A stretch of 33,695 nt of DNA, taken from NCBI RefSeq assembly GCF_000379025.1, contig NZ_KB900618.1, positions 69,515 to 103,209 of the forward strand, given 5' to 3'. Origin of the DNA: Orenia marismortui DSM 5156. Lineage in GTDB: Bacteria > Bacillota > Halanaerobiia > Halobacteroidales > Halobacteroidaceae. The position numbers and the translations under genes were made by a program. Positions 24,089-28,548 of the stretch are shown piece by piece (position 1 is the stretch's first letter; every line of letters begins with the position of its first letter). A model generated the notes under the pieces. It was not told the DNA's origin, did no database searches, and worked only from the letters and a program-made list of their open reading frames with translations.

Positions 24089-24823
24089 TTGATTATTAGA
24101 GCTAAGAAGTATATGATTTATATATTGATTTTAATTTTTTATATAATTTTTTTCTTGCCAAATAGATTAGAAATAGATGTTTTAATTCCTAGCCAACCAA
24201 TTGCTCAACAAAGAGTTGTAGTAATTGATCCAGGCCATGGTGGGGTAGATGGTGGAACAAGTTATGGAGGTATATTAGAAAAGGATATTAACTTGGAAAT
24301 TGGATTAGAATTAAGAAGATATTTGGAAAAGAATAGTAATGTTAAAGTGATTATGACTAGGCAAGAAGATATTGCTCTAGATCACCTCAATAAATATTCT
24401 AGTAGTAGACATACAAGAGACTTGAGGGCTAGGATAGATAGAATTAATCGATTAGAGGCTGATATATTTATTAGTTTGCATGTAGATCATAGGATTAATC
24501 AGCCCTGGCAAAAAGGAGCAGTAGTCTTATATTATCCACGCCACCAACAGAATAAAATAATAGCAGAGATTGTACAAAGACATCTAAATAACTTAAAATA
24601 TCCTGGGGTTAAAATAAAAGATCATAAAATTCTCAAAAGAAGAAATCTCTATATTTTAAAAGCTAAAAAAACTCCAGGAATTTTGATTGAGCTAGGGTTT
24701 ATCACTAATTATGAAGATCGTAAGCTGTTAGTTCAAAAAAGTTATCAACGGGCTTTAGTAAAGGCTATTTACCGTGGAATAGAAGAGTATTTTTCTGGGT
24801 TTAGATTTCTTGACTTGGATTAG
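24089..24823 (+). CDS. N-acetylmuramoyl-L-alanine amidase (Amidase_3, CwlD-like)
   Basis: A 244-residue zinc amidase that cuts the amide bond between muramic acid and the peptide stem. An N-terminal membrane segment (about residues 8-26) acts as signal anchor. The Amidase_3 fold follows: VVVIDPGHGGVDGG (zinc His), LEKDINLEIGLEL (zinc Glu), FISLHVDH (third zinc His), and ILIELGFITNYEDRKLL (catalytic Glu). Size and membrane anchor recall CwlD, which makes muramic-lactam in the spore cortex; that fits a spore-former but is not proven. TTG start with AAGGAAGTGA upstream. It is 42 bases before a polysaccharide deacetylase gene, probably co-transcribed. Confidence 0.88.
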   Translation: MIIRAKKYMIYILILIFYIIFFLPNRLEIDVLIPSQPIAQQRVVVIDPGHGGVDGGTSYGGILEKDINLEIGLELRRYLEKNSNVKVIMTRQEDIALDHLNKYSSSRHTRDLRARIDRINRLEADIFISLHVDHRINQPWQKGAVVLYYPRHQQNKIIAEIVQRHLNNLKYPGVKIKDHKILKRRNLYILKAKKTPGILIELGFITNYEDRKLLVQKSYQRALVKAIYRGIEEYFSGFRFLDLD

Positions 24824-24865: not shown

Positions 24866-26089
24866 ATGATTAATTTTAATAAGAATAAGGTTTATCTAAT
24901 TTTTTTCTTTATCTGTTTTTTGGGGATATCTTCTTTGTGTACTTTTTTTATTAAAGGAAACTATCTTTTGGCAAAAGATCAATTAAAAGAAATTCCTCAA
25001 GAATTAAGCTTATCAGCAAAATTAAGACTAAAAGTTAGGAATTTCTTATTATATTCTAAGTTAAACCAATTGGTAGAAGTGATTATTGATCAAGAGAATA
25101 AGCAAATTAATCAAGAATTAGAGAATAGAGTAATAAGTTTTTTAAGTAGTGAAAAGTTAGCACAAGTAATAACTGATAATACTAAAAGAAAGATTATTGA
25201 AGATATAGGTTATAAAGGGGATAAAGTCTATTTGAATCTTTCTGGCAATATTTATCAATTAAATGTATTTCAGCAGTTTTTTATTATTGAGTCATTGCTT
25301 AAACTTTTTGCAGATATTGACAAGGTAGAAGAGATACAATTCTTAATTGATACTCAAAAATTAAAATTATCACCATATTTAGATATCTTAGCTCCTATTA
25401 AGATTAGAAAAAGTGATGCAAAAATTGCCATAATAATTGATGATTTTGGAAATAATGCCGAGGGAACAGGAGGAATATTAAATTTAAAGCAAAAGATGAC
25501 TTGTGCGATTATGCCTTTTAAGGAGAGTTCAACTGAAGAGGCTGAAATAGCCAAAAATTTGGGATTTGAAGTTATTATACATTTGCCTATGGAAACAGAG
25601 TTAGATAGGCCAAATTGGTTAGGAGTTAAACCAATTTTAACTTCATTGCCTGATGAAGAAATAAAAGCTAGAATGCAAGAAGCAGTCAATGATTTACCAC
25701 AAGCTATTGGCTTTAATAACCATACTGGTGATAAAGCAAGTGCTGACAAACGGGTAATGAAAGCTATTTTAGAGGTTGCTAAGCAGAATAATTTAATAGC
25801 TATAGATAGTAGAACCACTCCTAAGACAGTGGTAAGAGTGGTAGCAGAAGAACTAGGGGTTAGAGTTTTAGAAAGAGATGTCTTTTTAGATCATCATAAG
25901 AATTATGGGTATATTAGAAAGTCTATTCTAAAATTAGCAGGGAAATCGATTATAAAAGGTCAGGCTATAGGAATTGGTCATGTTGGTCCCCATGGAGGTA
26001 ATGTAACTTCATTGGCTTTAAAAAATTTACTTCCTGCTATTGAGAAAGCGGATATTAAATTTGTGACAGTTAGTGAATTAATAGATTAG
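24866..26089 (+). CDS. Divergent polysaccharide deacetylase family protein (DUF610)
   Basis: A 407-residue exported protein. N-terminal signal anchor (about 9-28), then a mixed 140-residue region with a GerM-like feel (KVYLNLSGNIYQLNVFQQFFIIESLL), then the divergent deacetylase domain (about 190-405): AIIIDDFGNNAEGT with the metal Asp pair, FEVIIHLPMETEL, GFNNHTGDKAS with the metal His, FLDHHKN and GIGHVGPHGGN. Related proteins are thought to act on polysaccharide outside the membrane, but their substrate is not established. Its neighbour, the amidase, supports a cell-wall or cortex role. Ribosome site CAGGAGTG. Confidence 0.87.
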   Translation: MINFNKNKVYLIFFFICFLGISSLCTFFIKGNYLLAKDQLKEIPQELSLSAKLRLKVRNFLLYSKLNQLVEVIIDQENKQINQELENRVISFLSSEKLAQVITDNTKRKIIEDIGYKGDKVYLNLSGNIYQLNVFQQFFIIESLLKLFADIDKVEEIQFLIDTQKLKLSPYLDILAPIKIRKSDAKIAIIIDDFGNNAEGTGGILNLKQKMTCAIMPFKESSTEEAEIAKNLGFEVIIHLPMETELDRPNWLGVKPILTSLPDEEIKARMQEAVNDLPQAIGFNNHTGDKASADKRVMKAILEVAKQNNLIAIDSRTTPKTVVRVVAEELGVRVLERDVFLDHHKNYGYIRKSILKLAGKSIIKGQAIGIGHVGPHGGNVTSLALKNLLPAIEKADIKFVTVSELID

Positions 26090-26272: not shown

Positions 26273-26331
26273 TTAAATTAAAACTTAGAATGGGATAGCT
26301 ATAGCAAAAATCAAGCTAAAGCTTTTTATTA

Positions 26332-26358
26332 ACGAATTTATTTTCTAGACATATATTG
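26332..26358 (+). promoter_or_regulatory. Sigma-K-like promoter 1 of the tiny-peptide array
   Basis: AC at 26332-26333, 16 bases, then CATATATTG at 26350. The known sigma-K pattern is AC, 16-17 bases, CATAnnnTA. The same spacing recurs in all seven units. Confidence 0.7.
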
Positions 26359-26391
26359 TAATATAACGATGAATAAGGAGGCGAGAATAAA

Positions 26392-26469
26392 ATGGATTAT
26401 TATGATGGAAGTGTAGCAATAGTATTATTTTTGATTCTAATTTTATTAGTTTTAGGAATTGACCATTAA
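26392..26469 (+). CDS. Tiny hydrophobic peptide 1 (YjcZ-like sporulation family)
   Basis: A 25-residue peptide: short polar start MDYYDGSVAIV, hydrophobic core LFLILILLVLG, and end IDH. One membrane-spanning helix is predicted. AAGGAGG at 26376-26382 and the family promoter lie upstream. The pattern (aromatic/Gly start, A-I-V, then a Leu/Ile/Val helix) recalls the tiny transmembrane YjcZ family of sporulation proteins. It is the first of six intact relatives. The lack of a G-rich cysteine end sets it apart from copies 2 and 3. Coding status is supported by the conserved family, not by length. Confidence 0.8.
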   Translation: MDYYDGSVAIVLFLILILLVLGIDH

Positions 26470-26509
26470 TCTAAGTTTACTAGTTTTATATTACATTTAT
26501 AACCTGCTT

Positions 26510-26537
26510 TTAAGGACTCCAACTAGGAGTCCTTTTA
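26510..26537 (+). terminator. Terminator of array unit 1
   Basis: TAAGGACTCC (26511-26520) pairs with GGAGTCCTTTTA. The same AAAGGACTCC/GGAGTCCTTT hairpin recurs at 27091 and 27952. Confidence 0.85.
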
Positions 26538-26581
26538 GATTTTATAAAGTAGATAAGACTAAATTCAATTTCTATTTATTA

Positions 26582-26608
26582 ACAAAATTAATCTTTGAGC
26601 ATATATTG
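26582..26608 (+). promoter_or_regulatory. Sigma-K-like promoter 2
   Basis: AC at 26582-26583, 16 bases, then CATATATTG at 26600, preceded by G. Confidence 0.72.
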
Positions 26609-26637
26609 TATTAGAAGAAAGGAAAGGAGGGAAAGCA

Positions 26638-26739
26638 ATGGGAGATTATGGAGATTGTGGTGGATATGGCGGAAGTGTAGCAATTGTATTATTTTTAATT
26701 TTAATTTTATTAGTTTTGGGAATTAATGGCGGTTATTGA
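26638..26739 (+). CDS. Tiny hydrophobic peptide 2 (YjcZ-like)
   Basis: A 33-residue peptide: start MGDYGDCGGYGGSV, then AIV, the invariant LFLILILLVLG helix, and the end INGGY. It has one cysteine (Cys7). AAAGGAGGG lies 7 bases before the ATG. Its stop codon overlaps the left arm of a perfect 22-bp hairpin. The glycine/tyrosine start is the closest match in the array to the YjcZ family pattern (GGYGG followed by a hydrophobic helix). Predicted to sit in a membrane, presumably during sporulation; role unknown. Confidence 0.85.
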   Translation: MGDYGDCGGYGGSVAIVLFLILILLVLGINGGY

Positions 26740-26785
26740 TAAGTTATGTAATAGGGGGAATCCTCCCCCTATTACATAACTTATC
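26738..26785 (+). terminator. 22-bp perfect hairpin overlapping the stop codon of peptide 2
   Basis: Arms 26738-26759 and 26764-26785 are exact complements with a 4-base loop. The T-tract is weak (TTCTT). The stem includes five G-C pairs at its top (GGGGGA/TCCCCC). Confidence 0.8.
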
Positions 26786-26863
26786 TTCTTTATTAATTAA
26801 GAGATCTATTTTTGTAGCCTTAATTTATTGTTATAAAGATAAACTAAAAAGATATTCTTATTA

Positions 26864-26890
26864 ACGAAATTAGCTTTTGAGCATATATTA
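26864..26890 (+). promoter_or_regulatory. Sigma-K-like promoter 3
   Basis: AC at 26864-26865, 16 bases, then CATATATTA at 26882, a full match to CATAnnnTA. Confidence 0.75.
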
Positions 26891-26919
26891 TAGTAGAAGA
26901 AAGGAAAGGGGGGAAGGCA

Positions 26920-27024
26920 ATGGGAAACTATGGAGATTGTGGTGGATATGATGGAAGTGTAGCAATAGTATTATTCTTAATTTTGATTTTATTAGTTTTA
27001 GGAATTTATAGCGGTGATTGCTAA
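26920..27024 (+). CDS. Tiny hydrophobic peptide 3 (YjcZ-like)
   Basis: A 34-residue peptide, the longest of the array: MGNYGDCGGYDGSV, AIV, the LFLILILLVLG helix, and the end IYSGDC. Cysteines at both ends (Cys7 and Cys34) could allow cross-linking on either side of a membrane. AAAGGGGGGAAGG lies before the ATG. It is most similar to peptide 2, with mainly synonymous codon changes in the helix. Confidence 0.85.
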   Translation: MGNYGDCGGYDGSVAIVLFLILILLVLGIYSGDC

Positions 27025-27027
27025 ACA

Positions 27028-27058
27028 ATGTAAATCGGGGGGACTCCCCCGTTTACAT
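27028..27058 (+). terminator. G/C-rich hairpin after peptide 3
   Basis: ATGTAAATCGGGGGGA pairs (one bulge) with TCCCCCGTTTACAT, in the same position as the hairpin after peptide 2. Confidence 0.75.
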
Positions 27059-27090
27059 AAGTAAATTTCCTTTCTTCTATATTAATTCAT

Positions 27091-27123
27091 AAAGGACTCC
27101 ATTTTTGGAGTCTTTGTTTTTTT
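27091..27123 (+). terminator. T-tailed terminator of array unit 3
   Basis: AAAGGACTCC (27091-27100) pairs with GGAGTCTTT, followed by a long T run. Confidence 0.88.
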
Positions 27124-27159
27124 ACTATATACAGATAAATTAAAGAGATATTCTTATTA

Positions 27160-27186
27160 ACGAAATTAGATTTTAAGCATATATTG
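27160..27186 (+). promoter_or_regulatory. Sigma-K-like promoter 4
   Basis: AC at 27160-27161, 16 bases, then CATATATTG at 27178. Confidence 0.72.
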
Positions 27187-27210
27187 TATTAAAAGAAAGG
27201 AGGAGAAATA

Positions 27211-27300
27211 ATGGGAGATTACGGAGAGTATGGAAGTGAATCTATAGTATTATTTTTAATCTTAATCTTATTGGTTTTAGGTATTAACGGAGGATACTAA
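27211..27300 (+). CDS. Tiny hydrophobic peptide 4 (YjcZ-like)
   Basis: A 29-residue peptide: MGDYGEYGSESIV, the LFLILILLVLG helix, and the end INGGY, as in peptide 2. It lacks the GGSVAI block of its siblings, having GSESI instead. AAAGGAGGAG lies 6 bases before the ATG. The helix uses different synonymous codons (ATC, TTG, GGT) from peptides 2 and 3, which suggests selection on the amino acids. Confidence 0.83.
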   Translation: MGDYGEYGSESIVLFLILILLVLGINGGY

Positions 27301-27412
27301 ATTTATAGAAGGTCTGCCCTAATCTTAAAGCAAGAGAAAAGACAGATAGATTAAAAATATTGAAGATAATATTTATTATAAAAAATACCTAGAGCTCATT
27401 GTTCTTTGTCTG

Positions 27413-27454
27413 ATAAGAGAGAACTTAGTATATACTAAGTTCTCTCTTATTTTT
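27413..27454 (+). terminator. 38-bp perfect palindrome terminator of array unit 4
   Basis: 27413-27431 and 27432-27450 are exact complements (ATAAGAGAGAACTTAGTAT and its reverse), followed by TTTT. Confidence 0.9.
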
Positions 27455-27469
27455 ATAAATTTTTAATTA

Positions 27470-27496
27470 ACAGAATTACTTTTCAAGCATATATTG
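27470..27496 (+). promoter_or_regulatory. Sigma-K-like promoter 5
   Basis: AC at 27470-27471, 16 bases, then CATATATTG at 27488. Confidence 0.72.
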
Positions 27497-27525
27497 TATT
27501 AGAAGAAGGGAAAGGAGGCAAAAAT

Positions 27526-27621
27526 ATGGGATGTTATGAAGATATAGGAGGCTATGGCGGAAGTGTAGCAATAGCACTATTTTTAATCTTAATTTTATTA
27601 GTCTTAGGCGTTGGAGTTTAA
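27526..27621 (+). CDS. Tiny hydrophobic peptide 5 (YjcZ-like)
   Basis: A 31-residue peptide: MGCYEDIGGYGGSV, AIA, the LFLILILLVLG helix, then VGV. One cysteine near the start (Cys3). AAAGGAGG lies before the ATG. AIA instead of AIV is shared with peptide 6. Its C-terminus has lost the INGGY/IDH type of ending. Confidence 0.83.
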   Translation: MGCYEDIGGYGGSVAIALFLILILLVLGVGV

Positions 27622-27631
27622 TAATATTAAG

Positions 27632-27661
27632 TAGTAGAATAGGGATTTCCCTATTCTACTT
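27632..27661 (+). terminator. Hairpin after peptide 5
   Basis: AGTAGAATAGGGA (27633-27645) pairs exactly with TCCCTATTCTACT (27648-27660). The T-tract is poor. Confidence 0.75.
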
Positions 27662-27741
27662 ACATAATCTTTGCTATTAAGAATATCTTCCTTTCTTATC
27701 TGATAAAGATTTTAATTTAGAATCCTTATTAAATTTTATTA

Positions 27742-27768
27742 ACAAAAATAATTTTACTACATATATTA
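27742..27768 (+). promoter_or_regulatory. Sigma-K-like promoter 6
   Basis: AC at 27742-27743, 16 bases, then CATATATTA at 27760, a full match to CATAnnnTA. Confidence 0.73.
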
Positions 27769-27799
27769 TAGTAGATGAAAGGAAAGGAGGGGATTAAAG

Positions 27800-27883
27800 A
27801 TGGGTTATGATAGCTATGGTGGAAGTGTAGCAATAGCATTATTTTTAATCTTAATCTTATTAGTTTTAGGAATTGATCACTAA
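27800..27883 (+). CDS. Tiny hydrophobic peptide 6 (YjcZ-like)
   Basis: A 27-residue peptide: MGYDSYGGSV, AIA, the LFLILILLVLG helix, and the end IDH, as in peptide 1. No cysteine. AAAGGAGGGG lies before the ATG. It combines the start and AIA of peptide 5 with the end of peptide 1. Confidence 0.84.
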   Translation: MGYDSYGGSVAIALFLILILLVLGIDH

Positions 27884-27894
27884 TAAAATAGTTA

Positions 27895-27922
27895 AGGGGG
27901 TTAGGTCTTTCTAATCCCCCCT
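27895..27922 (+). terminator. Hairpin after peptide 6
   Basis: AGGGGGTTAG pairs with CTAATCCCCCCT with wobble. It has the same G-run design as after peptides 2 and 3. Confidence 0.65.
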
Positions 27923-27951
27923 ACATAACTAATTTCCTTTCTTCTATATAT

Positions 27952-27979
27952 AAAAGGACTCCAATTTTGGAGCCCTTTT
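27952..27979 (+). terminator. T-tailed terminator of array unit 6
   Basis: AAAAGGACTCC (27952-27962) pairs with GGAGCCCTTTT, homologous to the terminators of units 1 and 3. Confidence 0.85.
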
Positions 27980-28014
27980 ATATTAGTTTAACAAAAATAG
28001 AAACATAGTTATTA

Positions 28015-28041
28015 ACATAAATAATCTTTAAACATATATTG
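28015..28041 (+). promoter_or_regulatory. Sigma-K-like promoter 7, without an intact peptide gene
   Basis: AC at 28015-28016, 16 bases, then CATATATTG at 28033. The first ATG after it (28049) opens a 19-codon frame without ribosome site. It may drive the remnant at 28118 or serve the acidic protein at 28249. Confidence 0.6.
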
Positions 28042-28117
28042 TAATAGAATGAATACAAATAGAAAAGTAGATAGAATTTTGTTAAGATTTATAAGAATAT
28101 GGGGATAAGATATTAAG

Positions 28118-28163
28118 ATGAGTATTTATAGTGGTCGGTGGAAGAGTTGTATTTTACAGTTAA
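28118..28163 (+). pseudogene. Decayed seventh tiny-peptide gene
   Basis: ATG at 28118 reads MSIYSG, then after a one-base frameshift near 28136 the sequence GGTGGAAGAGTTGTA resembles the GGTGGAAGTGTAGCA (GGSVA) of the intact copies, and stops at 28161. The hydrophobic helix is lost. The promoter at 28015 is intact. The match is short, so the call is tentative. Confidence 0.4.
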
Positions 28164-28248
28164 GGTATTTGTTATTAAATAAGACTAAGAATAAATCATA
28201 AAATTAAGATCTATAAAATAAAATTTAGATAGATAGGAGGGAATATTA

Positions 28249-28548
28249 ATGAGTGATGATAAATTAAAAGAACTATCAGAATTGATTGGAATTGACTTAG
28301 ATCTTTTAGAAGGTCTAGAAGCTAAAGATATTAGCGATGAACAAATAGAAACTATAGAAAGTTTGTATGAATTATATCTAGGTGATAAAGAGGCTTTTTC
28401 TAATTTCTTAAATGATAGTGGAATAGCTCAATTAATGGAAGAGATGGGTCTAGAGGGAGATGTAGATAGTCCTGAGCAAGTGGAAGAGTTAAAGAATAAT
28501 TTAGGTGAATTTATGAAAAAGAACAATTTGAATCTTGATGTAGATTAA
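28249..28548 (+). CDS. Small acidic protein of unknown function
   Basis: A 99-residue, strongly acidic protein (rich in E, D, L), predicted all-helical with no signal peptide or cysteine. It has an excellent ribosome site (AGGAGGG, 9 bases before the ATG). I do not recognise a family. It sits between the tiny-peptide array and cooS, and the sigma-K-like promoter 7 points at it, so it may be sporulation-expressed, though 210 bases separate them. It ends at a bidirectional terminator with cooS. Confidence 0.75.
   Translation: MSDDKLKELSELIGIDLDLLEGLEAKDISDEQIETIESLYELYLGDKEAFSNFLNDSGIAQLMEEMGLEGDVDSPEQVEELKNNLGEFMKKNNLNLDVD

Follow-up and report, generated by a model that had tools for sequence, protein, structure and literature searches.

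Tandem arrays of genes for short hydrophobic peptides, each with its own promoter, are known from the ldr and ibs type I toxins of enterobacteria, and tiny proteins also act in the mother cell of sporulating Bacillus, where SpoVM and CmpA are single-copy regulators. The YjcZ family of the Bacilli (TIGR01732, tiny_TM_bacill) comprises proteins of 25–45 amino acids, present in multiple copies in spore formers, with a Gly/Tyr-rich N-terminus and one near-invariant hydrophobic core of about 15 residues ending in Gly. The sigma-K consensus of Bacillus subtilis is worded as AC/CATANNNTA. The sigma-K regulon of this species includes yjcZ, and the consensus blocks lie 14–16 nucleotides (nt) apart (PMC517825). 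Here we describe an array of six intact units and one decayed unit encoding peptides of 25–34 amino acids in Orenia marismortui DSM 5156, located in a 33,695-nt stretch of contig NZ_KB900618.1 (hereafter, the window). The array is probably a birth-and-death cluster under sigma-K control, encoding late mother-cell proteins with a single helix that would reside in the outer forespore membrane or the coat.

The peptides share the anatomy of YjcZ listed above, including the composition of the N-terminus, and are likewise tiny proteins with one predicted membrane helix, but their core differs, being AF(V/I)xFLILILLxLG rather than the FALIVVLFILLIIVGA of YjcZ. The preliminary description of the locus had likened them to YjcZ-type sporulation proteins. 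Membership in that family was not borne out when TIGR01732 (cut-off 21.35 bits) was run: neither the six peptides nor 36 members of the wider family gave a match, and the best score in the genome, 10.6 bits, fell at another place. Profile–profile comparison (hhalign) with an alignment of six YjcZ proteins from Gottfriedia yielded a probability of 7.2%, and the FALIVVLFILLIIVG core of the YjcZ family is not found in the peptides. TIGR01732 was detected in 7 of 299 genomes, none of them among the 87 that carry the family described here, a number so small that the lack of overlap is not significant. Assignment to YjcZ is not supported by these tests, and the peptides would thus seem to form a separate family parallel to YjcZ, with the same anatomy and with common descent unproven; given that anatomy, their working is probably similar. 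SpoVM and CmpA resemble the peptides in size and in their mother-cell sporulation setting, but are single-copy, and no library matched the peptides; this distinction is drawn by description and not by direct alignment.

Anatomy and promoters of the array

The six intact open reading frames (ORFs) lie on the forward strand between positions 26392 and 27883 and encode, in order, 25, 33, 34, 29, 31 and 27 amino acids, with the decayed unit (unit 7) closing the row (Table 1). The array was not detected by Tandem Repeats Finder because its units are too diverged. All six peptides carry an unchanged LFLILILLVLG, flanked by ends of varying length and composition, so that both the array and its invariant helix are as first described. 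A single helix is predicted for the unit 2 peptide (Table 1). Over a 17-codon core, summed pairwise comparisons of the six copies revealed 76 synonymous and 23 nonsynonymous differences, with a ratio of nonsynonymous to synonymous rates (dN/dS) of about 0.07, the mark of strong purifying selection on this segment. The proportion of synonymous differences between copies (pS) is 0.41, and silent sites have hence diverged, which indicates that the copies are old and that the helix has been kept by selection, not by recent copying. Across the family, the variable ends are rich in Gly (21–29%) and Tyr (9–15%), with a combined share of 36–38%, and are also rich in Asp and Phe, with some Cys. Scans of the peptides against Pfam, NCBIfam and Rfam returned nothing useful, weak Pfam matches such as bCoV_NS7B (best E 0.0016) being dismissed as hydrophobic-helix noise, and a literature search with the peptide string turned up no relevant mention.

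The window contains precisely seven copies of the pattern AC-N16-CATATATT, all within the array, against an expectation of 0.23 and a maximum of two in shuffled sequence. The constant 16-base spacing reported for all seven promoters is thereby confirmed, while the repeated element itself is better defined as TTAAC than as AC: TTAAC-N16-CATATATT is found eight times in the 3.46-Mb genome, seven of them in the array, and a reversed-pattern control yielded none. Between units, the -35 element (TTAAC) is 100% and the -10 element 96% identical, whereas the 16-nt spacer shows 61% identity; the spacer has drifted while the two blocks have been held, and these are therefore conserved beyond copying itself. 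The full CATANNNTA -10 element is present in two of the six intact units (3 and 6), the others having CATATATTG, ending in TG. Each intact unit places its start codon 33–42 nt after CATA, with an AGGAGG-like ribosome site in between, and has one or more stable hairpins 3' of the ORF (folding z-scores of -2.5 to -8.9). Terminator-like sites number eight, against 0.6 expected, and the claim that every copy carries its own signals thus stands for the six intact units. Two hairpin types recur between 26505 and 27985, one of the form GGACTCC...GGAGTCC and one with a G-run/C-run stem, the latter varying in sequence while keeping its stem.

The promoter pattern extends beyond the window. Of the non-redundant regions upstream of family members, 111 offer 90 free bases or more, and 39 of these contain AC-N16/17-CATANNNTA; dinucleotide shuffles give 0.63 on average and never more than 3. 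The spacing distribution peaks at 16–17, with 31 sites at 17, 8 at 16 and 0–4 elsewhere. The 58 sites that lie at the expected distance have a median position 39 nt ahead of the start codon, and those parts of their flanks left unforced by the search read (G/T)TAAC and CATANNNT(A/G)TA. Consensus patterns for sigma-E and sigma-F/G gave no site in the family upstream regions. The family pattern matches the one known for sigma-K of B. subtilis, and a sigma-K-type reading of the promoters, as proposed earlier, is well supported at the level of sequence pattern. The accompanying notion that each copy is independently controlled may apply to this array, but not across the family, since only one of 26 members that closely follow another member has a site of its own. 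Short-gap members being almost free of sites, separate promoters mark this array, that of a genome from another genus (G004) and some others, and not the family as a whole.

Distribution of the family and link to sporulation

With a profile built from the six peptides, relatives were recovered from every one of the seven other genomes in the taxonomic family and from further members of the class. A broader profile, constructed from 36 diverse members, matches 87 of 299 genomes in a sample of the phylum, representing 63 of 210 genera. The core F-L-I-L-I-L-L is unchanged in 36 of 36 aligned members, which were partly chosen by the core itself. Multiple copies are usual, with at least two in 76 of the 87 genomes and a median of four. 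The Orenia genome analysed here holds ten members: the six of the array, one at C1:637094 with its own sigma-K-like site, and three at C2:401254-401580 (L235, L237, L238). The latter three stand in tandem, form a tight group of FLILILLLFSGDMG type and have no obvious sigma-K site. A search with a degenerate DNA pattern gave many chance matches, which were filtered by requiring both a ribosome site and the core in each peptide gene; the matches listed include Orenia metallireducens, Desulfofundulus thermobenzoicus, Desulfallas and Moorella. A protein scan of genome contigs gave no confirmed match, the peptide being probably too short for the tblastn step.

The suggested connection with sporulation is supported by two patterns of co-occurrence. 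SpoIVA is encoded in 86 of the 87 family-bearing genomes versus 171 of the 212 others (Fisher p=4.8e-6), and the lone family genome lacking SpoIVA (G021) contributes a single marginal match (E=0.008). Furthermore, among 61 relatives from the class, the family (E <=0.01) is found in 18 of the 29 genomes with spore sigma factors (best E below 1e-70) versus 1 of the 32 without (p=5e-7), the lone exception being an 11-residue match.

Proposed role and competing explanations

Taken as late mother-cell proteins of a sigma-K cluster, the peptides suggest the following scheme. RNA polymerase carrying sigma-K would transcribe the array late in the mother cell, each unit being a predicted complete transcription unit with promoter, ribosome site, ORF and hairpin. 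The FLILILLxLG helix would be membrane-inserted, with the outer forespore membrane or the mother-cell membrane around the spore as the likeliest site, and the Gly-, Tyr- and Asp-rich variable ends, which include some Cys, would join the coat or envelope layer alongside. Extra copies would raise dosage over a brief period and leave the ends free to vary on a fixed helix, and a distinct family would in this way do the YjcZ-type job of the Bacilli. More tentatively, the peptides may represent an undescribed sigma-K spore-envelope family, found in spore formers of the Clostridia type and of the Halanaerobiales, that occupies the YjcZ niche and uses lineage-specific arrays to vary its exposed ends, the promoter of unit 7 having been captured by a downstream gene for a protein of 99 amino acids.

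Several observations weigh against this role. No recognisable site is found at the expected distance in 53 of the 111 family upstream regions, and all seven sites in the window also match the sigma-70 consensus at 9–10 of 12 positions, a likeness on which the preliminary description was silent. Family loci elsewhere have no consistent neighbours and mostly do not lie beside sporulation genes. The helix prediction rests on a single sequence, and both association tests treat genomes as independent although they are related. Lastly, the family is absent from 171 of the 257 genomes that bear SpoIVA, including the taxonomic family f2 in the same order; most sampled spore formers lack it, and it is therefore accessory.

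The resemblance to sigma-70 sites is what would favour ordinary sigma-A promoters (TTAACA-N17-TATATT) driving small housekeeping membrane proteins with no role in sporulation. This is nonetheless quite unlikely, given that the C before ATA is kept in 39 of 51.ATANNNTA sites of relatives against a background of 15% C, that A, not G, precedes AC in 88% of relatives' sites, that TTGAC-N16-18-TATAAT occurs in no family upstream region, and that the family is nearly absent where genomes have no spore genes. Conservation of the helix to the exact residue points to self-association or to a particular partner, as would befit small proteins that regulate a membrane enzyme of late sporulation by targeting or partner binding in the manner of SpoVM and CmpA, themselves tiny mother-cell proteins. 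Structural dosage, however, better accounts for the many copies and their divergent ends, and no fixed partner gene emerges from the neighbourhoods, so that regulators of this kind appear unlikely.

Tiny hydrophobic peptides in multi-copy dosage, with sigma-K-type promoters and an adjoining amidase gene, could also be holin-like agents that lyse or permeabilise the mother cell late under sigma-K, aiding spore release together with amidases such as the CwlD-like neighbour. CwlD, however, is known as a cortex-modifying and not a lytic enzyme, the amidase linkage is seen in two genomes only, and the exactly conserved FLILILL core exceeds the needs of a generic pore former; we consider such a function very unlikely. 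Type I toxin–antitoxin cassettes would share with the ldr and ibs arrays the size, the hydrophobic core and the tandem arrangement with separate promoters. Here, in contrast, the promoters are of sporulation type, the family is tightly tied to sporulating genomes, strong ribosome sites lie a short distance from the promoter, and no antisense gene was seen. Sigma-70-like sites on both strands together number 18 against 16.1 expected, which is not above chance, and a weak tblastn search with a 33-residue query found no match in 72,556 plasmid and 50,697 phage records. A toxin function is hence scarcely credible.

The interest of a late mother-cell role lies in the fact that late-sporulation proteins outside Bacillus are poorly catalogued and that genes this short are easily missed. 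Found almost only in spore formers and recognised by none of the protein-family libraries searched, the family offers a candidate set for spore-envelope work in 63 of the 210 sampled genera and a means of recognising sporulation in metagenomes; its promoter collection defines sigma-K sites outside the Bacilli.

Neighbouring genes, the decayed unit and sigK

The array is directly preceded by genes for a CwlD-like N-acetylmuramoyl-L-alanine amidase and a divergent polysaccharide deacetylase (Table 1). The TIGR02883 score of the amidase, 164.9 bits, falls below the curated cut-off of 221.55. Genome G004, from another genus, shows the same order of CwlD-like amidase, PF04748 deacetylase and array, the latter comprising four intact units plus a broken one. 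This broken copy (L199:6783-6833) retains the core FLILILLVLG without a start, pointing to gain and loss of units there too. A further genome (G006) has a family member divergent from prkA-yhbH, and both placements count in favour of a sporulation role.

Table 1. Features of the array and its surroundings (window positions, except for sigK, given by contig)
Feature	Position	Strand	Evidence
CwlD-like N-acetylmuramoyl-L-alanine amidase gene	24089..24823	+	TIGR02883 E=2.2e-48; Pfam Amidase_3 E=2e-43
Divergent polysaccharide deacetylase gene, weak Germane-like part	24866..26089	+	PF04748 E=1.5e-65; directly upstream of array
Unit 1 promoter, TTAAC-N16-CATATATTGTA	26329..26360	+	motif search
Unit 1 peptide MDYYDGSVAIVLFLILILLVLGIDH	26392..26469	+	
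Unit 1 terminator hairpin	26512..26534	+	folding z -3.5
Unit 2 promoter	26579..26610	+	motif search
Unit 2 peptide MGDYGDCGGYGGSVAIVLFLILILLVLGINGGY	26638..26739	+	predicted helix, residues 6-31
Unit 2 hairpin, 22 bp	26738..26785	+	folding z -8.9
Unit 3 promoter	26861..26892	+	motif search
Unit 3 peptide MGNYGDCGGYDGSVAIVLFLILILLVLGIYSGDC	26920..27024	+	
Unit 3 hairpins, two, the second followed by a T run	27028..27115	+	folding z -3.7, -5.3
Unit 4 promoter	27157..27188	+	motif search
Unit 4 peptide MGDYGEYGSESIVLFLILILLVLGINGGY	27211..27300	+	
Unit 4 palindromic hairpin with T tail	27412..27451	+	folding z -7.5
Unit 5 promoter	27467..27498	+	motif search
Unit 5 peptide MGCYEDIGGYGGSVAIALFLILILLVLGVGV	27526..27621	+	
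Unit 5 hairpin	27633..27660	+	folding z -6.0
Unit 6 promoter	27739..27770	+	motif search
Unit 6 peptide MGYDSYGGSVAIALFLILILLVLGIDH	27800..27883	+	
Unit 6 hairpins, two	27888..27982	+	folding z -2.5, -5.9
Unit 7 (decayed) promoter	28012..28043	+	motif search
Unit 7 decayed body, without ribosome site, intact ORF or hairpin	28044..28200	+	
Gene for acidic protein of 99 amino acids, conserved in family	28249..28548	+	3' of promoter 7
sigK parts	C6:209765-209977 (L227), C7:61136-61609 (L228)		

Unit 7 has kept its promoter, whose 37-nt identity to the others (0.79) lies within the range of the intact units (0.74–0.82), and has lost the ribosome site, the ORF and the hairpin. No terminator-like site is found between this promoter and the gene for the 99-residue protein at 28249, which the promoter could now drive in a possible case of promoter capture. 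Relatives of this gene elsewhere do not adjoin the array, and no site like promoter 7 was seen upstream of it in the four relatives whose upstream region was read.

The gene for sigma-K itself is divided in this genome between contigs C6 and C7; its two parts show 85% and 90% identity to an intact relative and join by homology at residues 60–62. A large serine recombinase gene adjoins the N-terminal part. A split sigK next to a recombinase is as expected for a skin-type element, whose excision would have to precede the synthesis of sigma-K. In genome G010, the two sigK parts lie 2 kb apart with one recombinase gene between them (L229), and a genome of the same genus (G001:C8:26000-38000, L230) carries an intact sigK and, 5 kb downstream of it, another copy of the C-terminal part that is almost identical.

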